A stretch of DNA of 30,938 nt from a virus: positions 1 through 30,938 of the IMG/VR virus record IMGVR_UViG_3300042907_001290, one strand, 5' to 3'. Below are positions 23,099 to 30,480 of the stretch, piece after piece. The notes beneath the pieces were generated by a model. That model ran no database searches. It saw only the letters and a program-made list of their open reading frames with translations, and had not been told where the DNA came from. Numbering within the stretch: the stretch's first letter is position 1; each line of letters opens with the position of its first letter. A program made the position numbers and the translations under genes.

Positions 23099-23608
23099 TT
23101 ATTTAAATTTGGCTAGGTAAGAACCTGTTACATTAAAAGCTTGACTGTCTACAATGTTACTAAACGTTTCTAAAACTTCTGAATGCGTCCAGTCGTCTTT
23201 GATGTGTGTTTCATAAGGGTTGCCTTCCGACTCCCCTTGTGGGTAGTGAATAATTGGAATTGATATAAGAGCGTAAGCTGCTTGGCTTTTAACTTTTTCC
23301 CAAAGAACAACGGCATCTTCTTTTGACATATGCTCAAGAATGTCTCCAAAGATAACTAAATCATAGGTGTAGCTAGTGTGTTCCCTAGCATCCCGTACGT
23401 ACAACCGATCATAAATTGAATGCAATTTAAATTGTTCTAGGTAAGGTTCCCAAATTTCTATAGCGTCAACTACGGTTTGCGGGAAACCTTCTTTAATCAA
23501 CTTTCCATACGCCCCAGCTCCAGGGCCAACATCAAGGACCGTTTTTGGTGCAATCTCTGTAACTTTAGAAAGAACCCAACTTCTATTTTCTGCGTCAGAA
23601 TAAGGCAT
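23099..23608 (-). CDS. Class I SAM-dependent methyltransferase
   Basis: A 169-residue protein with a clear methyltransferase motif I (VLDVGPGAGAYG, residues 24-35), an acidic residue at the end of the second strand (VVDAIEIW), and a motif IV-like YDLVIFGDILEHMSKEDAV segment, typical of the Methyltransf-11/23 groups. The substrate cannot be predicted; small-molecule, glycan, protein or nucleic-acid targets are all possible, and no DNA-target-recognition region is present. It starts three bases after the Dps stop with no clear ribosome site, so it is probably coupled to Dps. Short for the family but complete in the core fold. Confidence 0.85.
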   Translation of the reverse strand: MPYSDAENRSWVLSKVTEIAPKTVLDVGPGAGAYGKLIKEGFPQTVVDAIEIWEPYLEQFKLHSIYDRLYVRDAREHTSYTYDLVIFGDILEHMSKEDAVVLWEKVKSQAAYALISIPIIHYPQGESEGNPYETHIKDDWTHSEVLETFSNIVDSQAFNVTGSYLAKFK

Positions 23609-23611
23609 GAG

Positions 23612-24046
23612 TTACTTGGTTGATGCTCGTAGTTGCCAAGACCATTTTTTATGCATGTCAATGCGGCCTGCAATAAAATCCGCAATACCTTGTTCGTTGG
23701 CTTTTGTTGCTTTATCAAAAGAATCATTTAAAGTTTTAATAACAGATTCATTTGCTGTTGCAAGCGCCTTTGCCATTGCTTTGGGAGATGGCTCAACATC
23801 CTTAAAAGTAACGGTAGTTAGTTCCATGTACTTTTTTAGACTGAATGGGGCGTAGTCATCAAGCTTACGAATGTTTTCTGCAATGGAGTCAATTGATCCG
23901 TAGGCATCTTCGTAGATGTCAGCAAAAAGAGAGTGGTACTGACTAAAGTCTTGGCCTTCTACGTTCCAGTGATATCCGTGGGCCATGAAATAAAAAGTTA
24001 CTACATCTGAAACAAGCACCTTAAGTGACTTGATTAATTCGTTCAT
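23612..24046 (-). CDS. Dps-like ferritin (DNA-protection / iron storage)
   Basis: A 144-residue four-helix ferritin-like protein. The segment FYFMAHGYHWNVEG then HSLFADIYEDAYGSIDSIAENIR is the Dps signature. H26, H38, D53 and E57 have the same spacing (12, 15, 4) as the Dps inter-subunit ferroxidase residues (Listeria Dps H31, H43, D58, E62), so the site appears complete. The C-terminal helix IADFIAGRIDMHKKWSWQLRA also fits. Dps dodecamers oxidise and store iron and can protect or compact DNA. It is slightly short, with no long lysine-rich N-terminal DNA-binding tail. AGGAG lies before ATG. It is the first gene of the leftward operon. Confidence 0.92.
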   Translation of the reverse strand: MNELIKSLKVLVSDVVTFYFMAHGYHWNVEGQDFSQYHSLFADIYEDAYGSIDSIAENIRKLDDYAPFSLKKYMELTTVTFKDVEPSPKAMAKALATANESVIKTLNDSFDKATKANEQGIADFIAGRIDMHKKWSWQLRASTK

Positions 24047-24190: not shown

Positions 24191-24219
24191 TTGCTAAGTA
24201 CCTCAAAAGTGTGTACAGT
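24191..24219 (+). promoter_or_regulatory. Rightward promoter for the replication genes
   Basis: TTGCTA (24191-24196) and TACAGT (24214-24219) are separated by an ideal 17 bases. Transcription would start near 24226-24229, at or next to the ATG at 24229 of the initiator gene. As no ribosome site is visible before that ATG, a leaderless mRNA is likely. Confidence 0.5.
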
Positions 24220-24228
24220 TTCCGACCC

Positions 24229-25455
24229 ATGACCACCAACCATTTCCAGGGGCCATTCTTGGCAGTTCCGCTTTGGGCGCATGAAATAATACGTGACTCT
24301 GGGCATTCTAGGGACATGCAAGTCCTATTATCTCTTATCGCTCTTATGGAGCGCCGTACCAAAGAAGTTAGTGCTTCCGTACAACAGATTGCTGATTACT
24401 CTGTACTCTCCAAAGAGACTGTCAAGCGTTCCCTTAGGTGGCTAGAAGAGTCAGGTGTGGTTACAATTGGACGCCGTAAAAAGCCGTCAGTGAATGTTTA
24501 TACAATTAACTATGCACCAGCAGATGGGGTCAGCGGTGACCCCATTAGGGCTGTGGATAAGTGGGTAGATAGGGTCACTGGTGACCCTATGATGGGGTCA
24601 GCCGTGACCCCATCAAAACCACGTTTGGCCCATACTGCTTGCGGATTACGTGACTCTTCTATAGAAGTATTAAATATAGATACTAATAAGGTAAAGAAAG
24701 CCGCAAGCGGCCTGGAGGAAGAAATGATCTTAGGTGGAGACCCAGAGGAGGCCGAAGTGGAGGTAGAAACAAAAGTTAAAAAGAAGAGTCAAAGGAACGT
24801 CAACAGTTTGGTCACCCAGTTTATAAGTGACCCACGTACGATTATGAGCCACAGTTATTCTTATAAGGAAATTATTATCTTACGTAAGACCCTTAACACC
24901 CTTAGAGACTCGGGCCTTACGGAGTTCACCGTTTCACAAATGATCAAGCGATTCCTTGACGTTGAGCACTGGCGTAATTCAGAAACACCAGTTTTAGTTT
25001 TTACCAACAAGGCAGTACAGCAAAAACTCATGGACCAAGTTGACACCGAGGTTGTTACAGAAGACCCAGTTCTTGCTTTGATGATGAGCGACTTTGAACG
25101 TGTCGGCATTAATTTGCCGTGGGATTATACAAACGATCAATTACTAAAGCGTGAAGTTATTCGTCATGGCATTGACATCTGCTACCGCTACCCTGAAGTT
25201 GTGGCAGAACTAATTAAAATCCACAATGGTGTACCAAGTACAAACTTTACTGCAACCTTGCGTGCGCTAAACTCTCTTGTAAGAGTTTTATCGGGCGAAG
25301 AAGATGGTGACTTAACCGAACTTCACGCTGCGGTGTCTTCTGTGAGTCTTCCACCAGAACTACACAAAACTTCAAAGAAAGACCTGCGCCCTGCGGCAGG
25401 GTCTCTACTTGAAGCCGTGTACAACTATCGGAGGAGTACCCATGGACGAAAGTGA
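24229..25455 (+). CDS. Replication initiator-like protein with winged helix and internal origin
   Basis: A 408-residue protein. Residues 31-94 form a winged helix (LSLIALMERRTKEVSASVQQIAD, then LSKETVKRSLRWLEESGVV, a 'iA..s.lS..TvkRslr.Le..G.v' pattern), ending in a basic wing. Residues 99-200 are a low-complexity linker encoded by the candidate origin; the rest is helical, with acidic patches, and ends in a basic tail. This order (DNA-binding domain, origin-encoding linker, C-terminal partner domain) matches lambda O-type initiators, and the downstream loader, helicase and primase genes agree. A GTG at 24211 is in frame but would lie within the promoter; ATG at 24229 is preferred and has no ribosome site. 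A general transcriptional regulator is the alternative. Confidence 0.72.
   Translation: MTTNHFQGPFLAVPLWAHEIIRDSGHSRDMQVLLSLIALMERRTKEVSASVQQIADYSVLSKETVKRSLRWLEESGVVTIGRRKKPSVNVYTINYAPADGVSGDPIRAVDKWVDRVTGDPMMGSAVTPSKPRLAHTACGLRDSSIEVLNIDTNKVKKAASGLEEEMILGGDPEEAEVEVETKVKKKSQRNVNSLVTQFISDPRTIMSHSYSYKEIIILRKTLNTLRDSGLTEFTVSQMIKRFLDVEHWRNSETPVLVFTNKAVQQKLMDQVDTEVVTEDPVLALMMSDFERVGINLPWDYTNDQLLKREVIRHGIDICYRYPEVVAELIKIHNGVPSTNFTATLRALNSLVRVLSGEEDGDLTELHAAVSSVSLPPELHKTSKKDLRPAAGSLLEAVYNYRRSTHGRK
24524..24545. repeat. Origin dyad repeat 1
   Basis: ATGGGGTCA and TGACCCCAT, two perfect 9-base arms around GCGG. Centre at 24534.5. Confidence 0.75.
24552..24560 (-). promoter_or_regulatory. Perfect DnaA box
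   Basis: TGTGGATAA on the plus strand is TTATCCACA on the minus strand, an exact match to the consensus high-affinity DnaA box. It occupies the place where a further dyad repeat would be expected from the spacing. Confidence 0.7.
24569..24590. repeat. Origin dyad repeat 2
   Basis: ATAGGGTCAC and GTGACCCTAT, two perfect 10-base arms around TG. Centre at 24579.5, 45 bases from repeat 1. Confidence 0.75.
24591..24614. repeat. Origin dyad repeat 3
   Basis: GATGGGGTCA and TGACCCCATC, two perfect 10-base arms around GCCG. It directly abuts repeat 2; centre at 24602.5, 23 bases from repeat 2. Confidence 0.75.
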
Positions 25456-25798
25456 ACCTATGTATGTTTTTGAGAACATAAACGACATTTTGATCTTTGC
25501 TCAATGGGTGCATGAGAACTTTGAATCCCCCGAAGAGTACGAAGGCTGGTTTGAGCACTCCCTTGACTCAGCAGTTCCTTCAGAAGTTTTTTGTACTCGC
25601 CCACAAAAGAAAGTGGAAAAGATGCATGTCTGTGTAGAGTGCAAAGCCCAGTTCACAACAAAGTCAGGATTAAGCGTTCATCAAAATGTTGTTCACACAC
25701 GCAAGTTGGATAACGCAGAATTCTGGGACATAATCAAGACCACTTACAACGATCACAACGAGGACCACAATGAGCCAAACATTTCAGACACCGACTGA
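25442..25798 (+). CDS. C2H2 zinc-finger protein
   Basis: A 118-residue acidic protein. ATG at 25442 has a strong GGAGGAG site; the open frame extends a little further upstream but only within the initiator gene. It overlaps the initiator end by 14 bases. One classical C2H2 finger is visible, with C64, C67, H80 and H85 (C-x2-C-x12-H-x4-H) and the hydrophobic residues expected between them (F71, L77). The remainder is acidic helical sequence without known domains. It may be a replication accessory factor or transcription regulator. It overlaps the loader gene by 29 bases, so it is tied to the replication operon. Confidence 0.82.
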   Translation: MDESEPMYVFENINDILIFAQWVHENFESPEEYEGWFEHSLDSAVPSEVFCTRPQKKVEKMHVCVECKAQFTTKSGLSVHQNVVHTRKLDNAEFWDIIKTTYNDHNEDHNEPNISDTD

Positions 25799-26354
25799 TT
25801 GGAAGTCAGCAGCTTGGTGGCGTAACCGTTCTCCAGAAGAACGTGTATTTCATTCTAAAATACCTCGCAGATTCGCTGACTGCGAAGATATCACTAACCC
25901 AAAGATTGCAAAATGGGTTATGGATTACAAACAAGGCGACAGCATTCTCATTCAGGGAAAGCCAGGAACTGGCAAATCAACAATGGCCCAGGCTGTACTT
26001 AGGGCGCTTGTTTTAGATAACCCTCTGTCAGGTCGCTTTGTCACATCCGATAGGTACATTGAGATGCTCAAAGACCAGTTTGATAACGACAACCTTCTTC
26101 CAGAGATGTACTCAAGTCCATACTTGATTAAATACATCCAGGGGGTCTTTGACATTGTTGTCCTTGATGGTGTTGGCCAAGAACGTGAAACAGAATTCTC
26201 AATCCATGAAATTGGTAGTTTGATTCGGCGTCGTCACGAAGACATGCGCACGACAATCATTACAACAACTCTTGGAGTCTCTGACTTTACACGTCGCTAC
26301 GGTGACCGTGTTAAAAGTGCCGTGCTTGACATGGTGGAAGTCAAGGTTGTGTGA
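25770..26354 (+). CDS. DnaC-like helicase loader (AAA+ ATPase)
   Basis: A 194-residue ATPase. Walker A is GKPGTGKST (residues 63-71), Walker B DIVVLDGVG (128-136, D133). Sensor-1-like TTIITTTLG and a closing YGDRVKSAVLDM segment with the expected arginine resemble DnaC/IstB proteins. It would load the DnaB-like helicase onto the opened origin. It lies three genes after the initiator and directly before the helicase pair, with overlaps on both sides (29 bases and TGATG). Slightly shorter than DnaC (about 245 residues), with a reduced N-terminal helicase-binding part. Confidence 0.85.
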   Translation: MSQTFQTPTDWKSAAWWRNRSPEERVFHSKIPRRFADCEDITNPKIAKWVMDYKQGDSILIQGKPGTGKSTMAQAVLRALVLDNPLSGRFVTSDRYIEMLKDQFDNDNLLPEMYSSPYLIKYIQGVFDIVVLDGVGQERETEFSIHEIGSLIRRRHEDMRTTIITTTLGVSDFTRRYGDRVKSAVLDMVEVKVV

Positions 26355-26794
26355 TGGAGGCTGGAGACATTGGAGTTGGCTCACGCATTGGGCAAGCATG
26401 TGTTTTTGAGGGCGTACTAGCATCACCACCTGTAGGTGTTGCACTTGTTAAAGAGAAGTACCACATTCGCCGTGGCTCTTGGGACGATGCATTAAAGCTT
26501 TGGACACCTAACGAACTTCCACTGAAGTCTTTAATTGACTCATCCGAAAGGATGGGTATTGCTACCGACATCATCACATTCCTTGACGCAGACGCAGTTG
26601 AACCGATGTACAGGTGGCTTGTAAGAAAAGGAATACACCTAGCGGTAGTTCACTATGACACACCCGAACTGTACGCTGAAGACCTTAAGTACAATCGTGG
26701 CGTAAAGGTTGTCTACACACCCAACAAAGAAATTGCTTACACACTTGGCATGCGAGCCACAGTAGTTAGCCCTAAATCTGCCTGGAGACTCTGA
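26354..26794 (+). CDS. Hypothetical protein in the replication operon
   Basis: A 146-residue protein starting one base inside the stop of the loader gene (TGATG); a GTG directly before gives the same product with one more residue. It has alternating strands and helices (SLIDSSERMGIATDIITFLDAD, HLAVVHYDTPELYAEDL, VKVVYTPNKEIAYTLGMRATVVSP) and could be a small Rossmann- or HAD-like fold, though no catalytic motif is clear. It sits between the helicase loader and helicase genes and also overlaps the helicase start (TGATG), so a replication role, perhaps as a mediator or a nuclease, is inferred from position only. Confidence 0.7.
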   Translation: MEAGDIGVGSRIGQACVFEGVLASPPVGVALVKEKYHIRRGSWDDALKLWTPNELPLKSLIDSSERMGIATDIITFLDADAVEPMYRWLVRKGIHLAVVHYDTPELYAEDLKYNRGVKVVYTPNKEIAYTLGMRATVVSPKSAWRL

Positions 26795-28047
26795 TGGCAT
26801 CTAGCGAACTTTACTTAGTTTCAAAAATCATTCTTGAAAAAGAAACAAACATACCTATTCGTGCTGGACTAAAGCCAGACCACCTAACTGGTGAATGGCA
26901 GGGAGTGTGGCAATGGATTTTAGAGTTCCAACGTGCACACGGTTCTGTACCTACTGAGCGCGTGTTCATGCAACAGTTTGGTGGAATCACCTTGCATGAC
27001 GTTAAGGACGAACCATTCTCAAGATTGCTTGATGAAATCTTTGATGCTTACCGTAAGCGTTGCATGTTGGACGCCCTACAGCCAGCAATCAATGCACTTA
27101 ACGATGATGACATTGACAAAGCAATGTCAACACTTGCATCAGGTTTGCAGAAAGCAAGTGTTGAAGCTTCTAGGTTGCGTGACGTAGACATTATTCAAAA
27201 CTACGAAAACCGTCTTAACCGCTATGAAGAGATGCGCCTACAACCAAACGCACTACGCGGAATCCCTACAGGATTTCATGGTCTTGACAAGATCACGCAT
27301 GGCCTACGCCCACAGCAGTTCATTGTCTTTGCAGGTGAGCCTAAGCGTGGTAAATCTTTGTTTGCTTTGATCGTTGCTAACTCAGCGCACATCTACGGCA
27401 AGCGCCCTCTCTTCGTGTCCTTTGAAATGAGTATTGAAGAACAGGAGGCTCGCTACGACGCTTTGATTGCAAAAGTACCGTATGGCCGAATCCTTGCTGG
27501 AGATCTCACGAACAAGGACATGGAGAAAATTCGTAAAGCATTATCCATCCGCAAGCACATGCAACCGTTTGTGTTCAGTGAGGACACCGCTTCTCTAACA
27601 ACTGTTAGCGGGCTTGCTGGAAAAGTACAAGAGTATCAACCGGACCTGCTAGTCGTGGACGGCGTGTACTTAATGGATGACGAAGAGGGCGAAGCAAAAG
27701 GTTCACCTCAAGCACTCACCAATATCACTCGTTCACTAAAACGACTTGCACAAAGGTTTGACATCCCTGTAGTTGCCACAACCCAAGTACTGTCTTGGAA
27801 ACTAGGGAACAAGAAGACGCGTGCAGTAACAGCAGACGCAATTGGTTACACCTCCTCATTCGCTCAAGACGCCGACTTAATCCTTGGTGTTGAGCGCAAC
27901 CCAGACATGGATGACCAAGCAATCATCAGAGTCGTACTTGCAAGGTCTTCGCCAAATGGTGAAGTACACATCAAGTGGGATTGGACAACAATGGAGTTTG
28001 AGGAGGTATACGAGAATGGCGCAGACTTCGACCCCTCTTTCGACTGA
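26794..28047 (+). CDS. DnaB-like replicative helicase
   Basis: A 417-residue hexameric-type helicase. Residues 1-120 form a helical N-terminal domain; residues 160-410 are RecA-like, starting at IPTGFHGLDKITHGLRP. Walker A is GEPKRGKS (residues 181-188), followed by the H1a-like PLFVSFEMS; Walker B is LLVVDGVYL with D289, and the H3 region QRFDIPVVATTQVL carries the conserved glutamine. It unwinds the fork 5' to 3' and recruits the primase encoded next. The start is coupled to the previous gene, with GGAG upstream. The primase start overlaps its last 32 bases. Confidence 0.93.
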   Translation: MASSELYLVSKIILEKETNIPIRAGLKPDHLTGEWQGVWQWILEFQRAHGSVPTERVFMQQFGGITLHDVKDEPFSRLLDEIFDAYRKRCMLDALQPAINALNDDDIDKAMSTLASGLQKASVEASRLRDVDIIQNYENRLNRYEEMRLQPNALRGIPTGFHGLDKITHGLRPQQFIVFAGEPKRGKSLFALIVANSAHIYGKRPLFVSFEMSIEEQEARYDALIAKVPYGRILAGDLTNKDMEKIRKALSIRKHMQPFVFSEDTASLTTVSGLAGKVQEYQPDLLVVDGVYLMDDEEGEAKGSPQALTNITRSLKRLAQRFDIPVVATTQVLSWKLGNKKTRAVTADAIGYTSSFAQDADLILGVERNPDMDDQAIIRVVLARSSPNGEVHIKWDWTTMEFEEVYENGADFDPSFD

Positions 28048-28933
28048 TGTTGCTCTAATCCTTGAAACAGCAGGAGTAGAGATATCTAAGATTGGTGACA
28101 GGGAAATTACAGGCAAGTGCCCAGTCCACATCCACACAACTGGCCGTGCTGACAACTCTCCGTCATGGAGCATTAATTCCTCTAGTGGTTTATGGATCTG
28201 CTTCTCGTGTGGCGCCCGTGGAACCTTGTCGTCATTGCTCTACCAGCTAATTGGTGATAGCTCCATATCGGCACAGCAGTTTCTTATTAATGCTGGAATG
28301 CAGCGGTTGACAGATGGGCCAAAGCCACTTGAACTAACTCCACTTGTAAACCCAGATGCGTTTTTAAAGTTTGATCGTGTATCTGATAAGCGTTGTTTAT
28401 CTAAGAACTTAAACCCAGAACTGGTTTACAGGCATGGTGTTAGGTGGAACACATCTAATAAGACATGGGCCTTGCCGATTATTTCAGCTACTGGGCAACT
28501 CAAAGGCTGGCAGGAGAAAAAACCAGGATGGGTTCGCAACTTTCCTGTTGGTGTAGAAAAGGGCAAAACCCTGTTTGGCATTGAAAGGTTCCGTGGACGA
28601 ACAGCCGTTCTGGTAGAGTCTCCTTTAGACATTGTTAGGTTTGCAGATGTCTTTTTTAAACCAAGTGCTCTAGCTTCATTTGGTGCACAAGTTAGTAGGG
28701 CTCAAATGGATTTACTTTTACATGTTGCTGATTCAGTTGTTGTTGCAATGGACAACGACCAGGCAGGTGTTGAATCAAGCAAGAAGCTTTACAAATTTAT
28801 GGGCACCCCTCGCAAAGGCATTAAGTGGTGGAACTACAGCAACACCGAAGCTAAAGATATAGGCGACATGACAGACGAAGAGATTGAAGAAGGGCTACTA
28901 ACAGCAACAGTAGTACCTCCCTGGATTGGCTAA
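28016..28933 (+). CDS. DnaG-like primase with CHC2 zinc finger and TOPRIM domain
   Basis: A 305-residue primase. ATG at 28016 has a near-perfect AGGAGGT site 8-9 bases upstream, inside the helicase gene; starts further upstream in frame lack one. The zinc finger has C35, H38, C62 and C65. The TOPRIM domain shows AVLVESPLDIVRFADVF with E201 and VVVAMDNDQAG with D246 and D248, the metal-binding residues. It makes RNA primers for fork synthesis. It is about half the length of bacterial DnaG, lacking the C-terminal helicase-binding domain; contact with the helicase may be provided otherwise. TAATG overlap joins it to the next gene. Confidence 0.92.
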   Translation: MAQTSTPLSTDVALILETAGVEISKIGDREITGKCPVHIHTTGRADNSPSWSINSSSGLWICFSCGARGTLSSLLYQLIGDSSISAQQFLINAGMQRLTDGPKPLELTPLVNPDAFLKFDRVSDKRCLSKNLNPELVYRHGVRWNTSNKTWALPIISATGQLKGWQEKKPGWVRNFPVGVEKGKTLFGIERFRGRTAVLVESPLDIVRFADVFFKPSALASFGAQVSRAQMDLLLHVADSVVVAMDNDQAGVESSKKLYKFMGTPRKGIKWWNYSNTEAKDIGDMTDEEIEEGLLTATVVPPWIG

Positions 28934-30480
28934 TGTTTAACGGAAAGCTTTACCCATATCAAGAAGAATCAGTTGATCGTATGGTTGACCGTGGCCAGAT
29001 GCTCTTAGGTCTTGTTATGGGCGCAGGTAAGACAGTCACAACTATCGCTTGCATTGAGCAGCTCATGGAAGCTAACGAAGTTGAAAAGTGCCTAGTCATA
29101 GTTCCGTCATCCCTCAAGTACCAGTGGAAACGCGAGATTGAACGTTTCACAAACTCACGAGTCATTGTCATTGATGGTACGCCCAAGGCCAGGGAAAAGG
29201 CATGGAGAGCAACCCTCTCAGCTAAGTACATTATTGTTAACCCTGAGACACTTATACGAGATTCGTCTCACTGTCTTAAAGTCAACTTCCAATCAGTTGT
29301 TGTTGACGAAGCAACAATCATTAAGTCCAGGGTCAGCAAACGCTCAAAGATGATTAAAAAGATTGGCAAAAGGGTGCATTATAGGTTTGCTCTAACTGGT
29401 CAGCCAATTGAAAACAGGCCAGAAGAGTTGTTCTCAATTATGGAGTTTGTTGACCCAGATGTACTTGGTCGGTTTGACCTGTTTGACAGGACGTTTATTG
29501 TTAGGGACCACTACGGTAAAGCAACTAGGTACAGGAACTTAAAATCTTTGCACGAGTCAATGAGCGAATGTATGGTTCGTAAAACACGCGAGGACATCGC
29601 AGACCAACTGCCAAACATTATTCACCAAACCATCCCAGTTCCTTTTGATGCGGCAGGGGCCAGCCTTTACAGAACCATATCAACTGACCTTCTTAATGAA
29701 CTTCAAAAGGTTCTTAATACCCATGGTGCTGGGTTTAACTTGTGGAAACACTATAACGACCCAGCTTCTAATGAGGCCCAAGGTCAGATTATGTCTCGCC
29801 TAACCGTTTTGCGGATGTTATGCGATAACCCCCATTTAGTAACAAGGTCAGCTGCAGCATACGCCGACCCCAACAGACCTAACCAAGGCAGTGCTTATGC
29901 AGACGCAATTACTAAAAAAGGTTTTGTAACACCAAACCTTGGTTCTCCAAAACTAGATGCCGTGATGGATTACATCACTCAAGTCCTTGATGAAGACCCA
30001 AAAAACAAGGTAGTTCTTTTTTCATTTTTTAAAGAAAACTTAAAGCTTTTAAAAGCAGCGACTGCCCGCATCACTAACAGTGTTCTTTTTACAGGGGACA
30101 TGTCATCAGAAGAGAAAGACCAAGCTAAGCAACAATTCTCCAATGACCCTAACACTCGGCTCTTCTTATCATCAGACGCTGGTGGTTACGGTGTTGACCT
30201 ACCTATGGCCAACTACTTAATCTCTTATGACCTTCCCTGGAGTAGTGGAAAGCTTGAACAAAGAGAAGCTCGTATCATTAGGTTGTCTTCTCAGTTCTCT
30301 CATGTTACGATTGCCACGTTCGTCATGCAAGGTTCCATTGAAGAAAGACAATACGAGATGCTTCAGCAGAAGCGTTCAATCAATGAAGCTTTCGTTGACG
30401 GAAAACATCACGACATTCGTGGTGGATTTGACATCATGTTAGGTAGTCTTACGTCCTTCCTAAGAGAATCACAGGTTTAA
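28933..30480 (+). CDS. SNF2-type DNA helicase/translocase
   Basis: A 515-residue superfamily 2 ATPase. Motif Q-like LYPYQEESVDRM, motif I GLVMGAGKT (29-34 region), motif II VVVDEATIIKS (DEAT, 125-128), motif III LTGQPIEN (154-161), motif V GGYGVDLPMANYLISYDLPW, and motif VI QREARIIRLSSQ (about 445) are all in order. SNF2-like proteins move along duplex DNA and can remodel protein-DNA complexes or branched intermediates; T4 UvsW and other phage helicases do related jobs in recombination and replication restart. It directly follows the primase (TAATG), so it belongs to the replication operon. Confidence 0.92.
   Translation: MFNGKLYPYQEESVDRMVDRGQMLLGLVMGAGKTVTTIACIEQLMEANEVEKCLVIVPSSLKYQWKREIERFTNSRVIVIDGTPKAREKAWRATLSAKYIIVNPETLIRDSSHCLKVNFQSVVVDEATIIKSRVSKRSKMIKKIGKRVHYRFALTGQPIENRPEELFSIMEFVDPDVLGRFDLFDRTFIVRDHYGKATRYRNLKSLHESMSECMVRKTREDIADQLPNIIHQTIPVPFDAAGASLYRTISTDLLNELQKVLNTHGAGFNLWKHYNDPASNEAQGQIMSRLTVLRMLCDNPHLVTRSAAAYADPNRPNQGSAYADAITKKGFVTPNLGSPKLDAVMDYITQVLDEDPKNKVVLFSFFKENLKLLKAATARITNSVLFTGDMSSEEKDQAKQQFSNDPNTRLFLSSDAGGYGVDLPMANYLISYDLPWSSGKLEQREARIIRLSSQFSHVTIATFVMQGSIEERQYEMLQQKRSINEAFVDGKHHDIRGGFDIMLGSLTSFLRESQV

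Follow-up and report, generated by a model that had tools for sequence, protein, structure and literature searches.

Origins of replication that lie inside the initiator gene and combine iterons with an AT-rich tract are a well-established kind, represented by lambda and pSK41. In lambda the origin occupies the middle of the initiator gene O and consists of inverted-repeat iterons bound by dimers, with an adjacent AT-rich tract of about 40 bp, and the number of iterons in origins of this type varies between relatives (4 versus 6) (PMC7466680, PMC5043065, PMC6022878). In pSK41 (RepA_N), a winged-helix N-terminal domain binds Rep boxes central in rep (PMC5703833), and the domains of RepA_N proteins resemble DnaD (PMC5703833, PMC7145576). 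In the RepA mycobacteriophages Miko, Rachaly and Jeeves, an HTH initiator suffices for replication and a cis-acting origin is presumed in or next to repA (PMC7157519). How initiators open DNA is described as still to be understood (PMC5043065).

The stretch of DNA analysed here (the window) comprises all 30,938 nucleotides, on one strand, of positions 1-30,938 of the IMG/VR record IMGVR_UViG_3300042907_001290. Positions 24524-24711 are very probably a phage replication origin of the lambda type, inside the gene of its own initiator; an earlier note on this DNA had proposed such an origin, and the sequence supports it through conservation, suppressed synonymous change and a recoding control. 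The features of the region are as follows.

24211-25455, plus strand: initiator gene, 414 amino acids, with an N-terminal winged helix, a disordered linker that is encoded in its first part by the origin region, and a helical C-terminal domain (Pfam, PHROGs, AlphaFold model)
24524-24545: iteron 1, a 22-bp dyad, core 24527-24542
24552-24560, minus strand: TTATCCACA, DnaA-box-like, the window's sole perfect TTATNCACA, in the gap between iterons 1 and 2
24569-24590: iteron 2, a 22-bp dyad, core 24572-24587
24592-24613: iteron 3, a 22-bp dyad, core 24595-24610
24660-24699, plus strand: probable unwinding element, an AT-rich tract (82.5% AT, the gene's AT-richest 40-mer) containing plus-strand TAG/TAA
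24700-24711: GC hairpin GCCGC-AA-GCGGC, abutting the AT tract on its downstream side; absent from the earlier note
25770-26354, plus strand: DnaC-like helicase loader (phrog_50, 2.3e-22)
26794-28047, plus strand: DnaB-like replicative helicase (DnaB_C 1e-34; phrog_19 5.3e-63)
27998-28933, plus strand: DnaG-type primase with zinc ribbon and Toprim (Toprim_2 1.8e-8; phrog_47 9.5e-32); frame taken from 27998 with a provisional start codon, the mechanical ORF starting at 27884
28933-30480, plus strand: SNF2-type helicase, after the primase (Pfam, PHROGs)

The loader, helicase and primase that had been read downstream of the initiator are recognized by Pfam and PHROGs as DnaC-like, DnaB-like and DnaG-type, and the proposed assignment to the myoviruses fits, since the window encodes tail sheath and baseplate wedge PHROGs. 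Upstream and divergent from the initiator, on the minus strand, 23099-24046 contains a Dps/ferritin-like gene (Pfam Ferritin, phrog_3636) and also a methyltransferase-like ORF (judged by eye), and a small protein with weak C2H2 zinc-finger matches is encoded between initiator and loader (25436-25798).

Like the lambda origin as described in the papers above, the locus carries repeated inverted-repeat sites (assigned here by sequence) inside the initiator gene, near an AT tract of about 40 bp; unlike it, the locus has a different iteron sequence, iterons that skip some steps of an approximately 11-bp ladder, an AT tract 49 bp away and, in some lineages, a DnaA box, and the place of a P-type loader that hijacks the host DnaB is taken by a DnaC-like loader, a DnaB-like helicase and a primase that the phage encodes itself. 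As in the RepA_N plasmid pSK41 (PMC5703833), the origin encodes the linker (here by sequence and model), but PF06970 is not among the nine Pfam families at E<=0.1 for the window initiator, most RepA_N iterons are described as converging on a poly-A tract, the repeats of the PLE RepA system lie in a non-coding region (PMC5703833, PMC7145576), and staphylococcal RepA_N members use antisense RNA for copy control (PMC5703833). The hybrid Rep of the pPR9 type likewise has an N-terminal domain resembling phage replication proteins (pfam13730, HTH_36; PMC5703833), and HTH_36 is matched by 14 of the 55 proteins of set A3 (the window protein and 54 ORFs of the DNA scan below, the entries of L051, L055 and L062 not being the initiator frame); pPR9, however, is a plasmid, and the comparison covers its Rep protein (PMC5703833). 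Phased iterons, an AT-rich region and DnaA sites are shared with the plasmids P1, R6K and RK2, whose iterons are mostly direct repeats bound by monomers of another initiator class (PMC5043065), and unlike in those plasmids the DnaA box is found in a minority of the window-type lineages. Miko, Rachaly and Jeeves differ in being prophage plasmids, and no repeated motifs are reported from the stretches near repA that their authors examined (PMC7157519).

The array and its initiator

The array consists of three cores of the form GGGTCA-N4-TGACCC, and a motif scan found no other perfect match in the 30,938 bases. The iterons had been claimed as three perfect dyads of about 22 bp; the cores, the positions and the perfect 9-nt arms of these inverted repeats (22 bp in total) stand, but the 4 central bases are unpaired, so that the dyads are not perfect over the full 22 bp. 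Their centres measure 45 and 23 bases apart, as claimed. The array lies within codons 105-135 of the 414-codon gene, about 310 bp inside the ORF and in a linker that is disordered in the model, which agrees with the location given before, and the AT-richest 40-mer of the gene lies downstream as described, although it starts 49 bp beyond the last iteron core and not some 40. Shuffles of the window say little about the array, as 12 of 100 had as many dyad matches when 3 mismatches were allowed. The spacer from the array to the AT tract (24614-24659) is nearly unchanged between the window and locus L096 and differs in L097.

Pfam places an HTH at residues 39-88 of the initiator, which matches replication-initiation PHROGs (best phrog_270 at 7.3e-11) and, weakly and mainly over the winged helix-turn-helix (wHTH), O-like PHROGs (2e-6 to 5.5e-5). 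The AlphaFold model has wHTH elements at 21-99, pLDDT <50 at 1-13 and 105-193, and C-terminal helices at 198-410; modelled alone, the C-terminal domain has a mean pLDDT of 88. As the linker peptide is predicted to be disordered, the stretch encoding it would be free to act as a DNA signal. Among PDB structures the whole model matches generic wHTH proteins, and its wHTH resembles MarR/CRP types. The RepA_N N-terminal domains 4pql and 4pt7 each score Z 9.8 against the wHTH (102 residues; rmsd 4.7 and 4.3, respectively), in a tie with such generic proteins. The C-terminal domain matches the DnaD domain 2i5u first (Z 5.3, rmsd 3.3, 69 residues), a weak match tied with 8w7s_N, and its second half has nothing above Z 4 among the structure matches listed and, in the viral library, no significant match beyond one close homologue.

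Recurrence of the iteron site

A scan of the viral collection by DNA alone, for two GGGTCA-N4-TGACCC dyads with 0-30 bases between them (spacings 16-46), returned 55 stretches, 51 of them in winged-helix ORFs (a sorting made partly by eye, with many near-identical contigs), two (L055 and L062) beside or at the end of such an ORF and two (L037 and L051) neither; a control scan of the same collection with one permuted dyad pair returned 0. G+C at these loci ranges from 36% to 67%, and in the outer lineages the initiator falls to 18-28% identity with the window protein while the iteron site is common to both. As the site recurs in very different phages, a search by DNA alone can find candidate origins. 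Bacterial genomes gave 17 stretches with dyads, 3 of them of the initiator kind: L080 and L089 lie in wHTH genes and L079 is seemingly the same contig as L055, while the other 14 had no wHTH ORF among up to three longest ORFs. On that Evansella contig (L055:1829-1891 / L079) the iterons are found beyond a short wHTH ORF, which has the look of a truncated initiator gene.

By contig, the spacings in the DNA scan are 22-25, 33-34 and 45-46, with exceptions of 18 (L050/L053), 31 and 40, the last two being just the two non-initiator stretches. We worked further with 25 lineages and with subsets of 12, 13, 14, 17 and 23, all picked by eye from near-identical groups. The 25 lineages give 62 spacings, at 22-25, 32-34, 45-46 and 57 apart from single cases of 18, 88 and 102, and these follow a period of about 11.3 bp with a broad peak near 11.2 (R 0.89, a value as high being found in 0 of 5000 uniform sets; R 0.91 at 11.2-11.4 for spacings >25 alone). 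The spacings are not locked to 3 (remainders 16/24/22). Over 87 iterons the half-site consensus is GGGTCA, in part imposed by the search, with weak preference outside it.

A protein profile (A4) built from the proteins of the DNA scan led to 42 loci, many near-identical and some incomplete, and including contigs absent from that scan (L099, L100, L121 and L128). All 42 relatives have 3-4 dyads in the linker (<=2 mismatches, at least one perfect); their available flanks are free of perfect dyads, a one-mismatch dyad occurring in one flank, that of L121. The initiator-linker site is also the only place with perfect dyads, 2-4 per record, in 19 longer records (40-94 kb). Among cultured phages, the window protein, L057 and L018 had no match at E 1e-5, while L064 matches 7 records and L046 matches 15, the best places covering 26-37% of the length. 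L046, which has GGGTCA iterons, matches O proteins of Escherichia/Shigella lambdoid phages (37% over 86 residues) and by this similarity is a link between the GGGTCA-iteron group and the lambdoid O group.

The recognition helix keeps T-x-K-R in all 42 relatives. Where the window type has SKETVKRSL, L158/L161 (L158:2255-3493) have SPKTVQRSL in the same slot, together with iterons of the form AGGTCA-N4-TGACCT, and retain the AT tract and the GCCGCAAGCGGC hairpin; the L158 and window proteins are identical at 228 of 414 positions. This joint change of helix and iteron is one event in one lineage, and the Microbacterium phage Gingerbug has AGGTCA-type iterons yet retains KR (lysine).

Constraint on the DNA and the elements downstream of the array

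The linkers of 13 genes were recoded synonymously, 20,000 times each, with the codon usage of each gene itself. The recoded window linker has a mean of 0.016 dyads, and three dyads appeared in 0 of 20,000; over the 13 genes the averages are 0.01-0.2 dyads versus 1-4 observed, and the observed number was never reached in 11 genes, twice in 20,000 for L110 and in 907 of 20,000 for L121, whose one perfect dyad is unexceptional on recoding. Between the window and L096, synonymous changes fall in 1 of 20 codons of the array and 1 of 32 over the 38 codons that follow, versus 100 of 293 elsewhere (Fisher 0.0035 and 5.6e-5, each against the rest). The direction is the same in all 10 pairs compared, which share members, but significance is not reached for either part in L099/L100 and L110/L114 (sequences too alike), for the array in L103/L108 and L103/L113, or for the downstream part in L096/L098. 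Every pair shows lower amino-acid identity over the array, or over the 38 codons that follow it, than over the remaining codons, by a small margin in alike pairs. A drop in silent change at a place where the protein is less constrained is how a DNA signal within a gene shows itself. Conservation of the dyads beyond coding need, a check set beforehand, is thus upheld by the 42 of 42 relatives, the suppression of synonymous change and the recoding.

The AT-richest 40-mer immediately follows the array in 13 of 14 genes of the family (in L110 it is elsewhere). Of 13 loci from outside the family, 7 have it after the array, the others being L027, L035, L055, L056, L062 and L089. Summed over 17 representatives, plus-strand TAG/TAA (TAR) occurs 104 times versus 51 (sd 5) on recoding, and the reverse-strand motif 54 times versus 44 (sd 5); two TAR in a row are found 23 times on the plus strand and 5 times on the minus strand. 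This test only partly separates TAR from general AT enrichment (1035 AT bases versus 931 on recoding), and L110 and L115 run opposite to the excess. DnaA-trios are described as 3'-[G/A]AT-5', i.e. TA[G/A] (PMC10797057), and we note that the TAR tract resembles them in sequence, polarity left aside.

Counted from the last iteron, the hairpin lies at +89 to +98 in 36 of 43 members, paired even though its arms differ (GCCGC/GCGGC, GACCGC/GCGGTC, GTCGC/GCGAC, GGCTG/CAGCC, GTCCCC/GGGGAC, AGGCCG/CGGCCT and GGCC/GGCC); it is missing at this offset in L110, L111, L112, L114, L122, L123 and the incomplete L131. Ten of 12 representatives have it versus 2.0 (sd 1.2) on recoding, and 8 of 12 have stems of at least 5 versus 0.6 (sd 0.8), neither value being reached in any of 400 recodings, for which the offset of 85-100 was fixed after viewing the data. 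In lines with other initiators (L018, L046, L053 and L064) the top hairpin lies at +41 to +59, and among 23 loci no perfect stem of at least 5 lies within 130 bp in five (L103, L122, L027, L056 and L089), while the hairpin is weak in L035 and L055. By eye, a steady T run is lacking on the minus-strand side of the hairpin. Lambda also has an inverted repeat beyond its AT-rich tract.

Readings of the site

We hypothesize that winged-helix dimers would bind each GGGTCA-N4-TGACCC iteron and, as the observed iteron spacing is of about whole turns, would be aligned with each other and cause the DNA to bend or wrap. Such bending or wrapping could melt the AT tract 49 bp downstream, and the hairpin, whose conservation is observed, may mark where the melted region ends on the far side, or fold in single-stranded DNA into a landing or stop signal. 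Gene order suggests that the DnaC-like loader would then place the phage's DnaB-like helicase and primase. The dyads may also have a regulatory role in cis, and hence a double role. A switch in cumulative GC skew, another check set beforehand, was not seen at the site in any of four related records of 73-94 kb, in which skew is weak and which are possibly incomplete.

The earlier note had placed a perfect DnaA box in the gap where a fourth repeat would fall, and TTATCCACA is indeed present there, its centre (24556) one base off the midpoint (24557) of the 45-base gap, in the slot of the missing repeat. That the origin is composite, requiring host DnaA at TTATCCACA alongside the phage protein, is a possibility that we regard as rather less probable than its opposite. 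The same 9 bases are kept in 8 of 8 aligned near-clade sequences, and initiator genes are enriched in them (4 in 26.7 kb versus 2 in 220 kb elsewhere, 0.24 expected, Fisher 0.0017), in a count that includes the L062 array beyond its ORF and uses representatives and a pattern chosen after seeing the data. L062, with G+C 67%, independently has within its array, between iterons spaced 46, 57 and 88, two adjacent inverted DnaA-type boxes, TTGTCCACA and TTATCCACA (L062:5717-5735). Against a requirement, TTATCCACA is in the initiator genes of 4 of 25 lineages (the window, L099, L057 and L062) and inside the array in 2 of them, the window clade and L062, and it is missing from L097/L098 (64% identical, with the same 45/23 spacing). 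Combined use of host DnaA and phage initiator, as had been suggested, is not supported as a general feature; we read the box as a recurrent minority add-on that, in this clade, may possibly bring host DnaA into the complex from the gap between iterons 1 and 2.

Autorepression is improbable. Here the dyads would be an operator or roadblock by which the winged-helix protein represses its gene, and replication would start elsewhere. Palindromic sites within the gene of a wHTH protein are what an autorepressor would show, and the wHTH resembles MarR/CRP types; yet the array lies well inside the ORF and not at its start, a constant AT tract and hairpin follow it, replication genes come next and the best PHROG profiles of the protein are initiators. 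A partition or packaging site is less probable still, for although phased repeats occur at centromeres too, this array sits in an initiator gene with an AT tract, a hairpin and replication genes. That the repeats merely reflect a low-complexity linker peptide and codon bias can practically be dismissed, since, although GVxxDP / GSxxTP peptides recur and L121 is unexceptional on recoding, the other 12 of 13 genes reach their observed dyads in 0-2 of 20,000 recodings, the spacings are not locked to 3 and synonymous changes are fewer where amino acids vary more.

Taking the site as an origin within its initiator gene, we tentatively suggest, as a wider proposal that is possible but may well be wrong, that one origin cassette read by one winged-helix class is common to phages and prophages of distant hosts. 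It would comprise iterons on a ladder with a step of about 11.3 bp, some slots of which may be empty and open to host DnaA boxes, a plus-strand TAR tract that the initiator may read single-stranded, much as DnaA reads DnaA-trios, and, closing the bubble, a covarying hairpin; conservation of the DNA site would exceed that of its protein reader. In the literature searched, which left out most subscription journals, we found no description of the breadth of the GGGTCA iteron class, its spacing ladder, the hairpin or the TAG/TAA-rich tract; GGGTCA in one published paper falls within primers. To our knowledge, the origins of most environmental phages are unknown. A DNA pattern that by itself points to origins, with 53 of 55 matches in or beside initiator genes, would thus allow candidate origins to be called in fragmentary contigs, and a site that outlasts the sequence identity of its presumed reader, the change of iteron and helix in L158 and the covarying hairpin offer direct tests of DNA opening.

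The O-like gene of the Escherichia phage PhiR29_2 (L136:1738-1860) has 15-bp tandem repeats of the TCAAAATCTGACCCG type, not dyads of 22-23 bp. The Arthrobacter phages Bolt007, Altadena and Bumble, which have a RepA-like/HTH protein, resemble the window in carrying repeats of 22-24 bp after the wHTH and, by eye, an AT-rich stretch and an inverted repeat too, but their iteron is CCCCCCCTCAAAACCGCG and not GGGTCA, with a core reminiscent of the lambda iteron. The 22-24 bp repeats in Arthrobacter phages lie at L132:2839-2886, L133:2815-2862 and L135:2801-2869, and CCCTCAAAAC occurs in two of the three.
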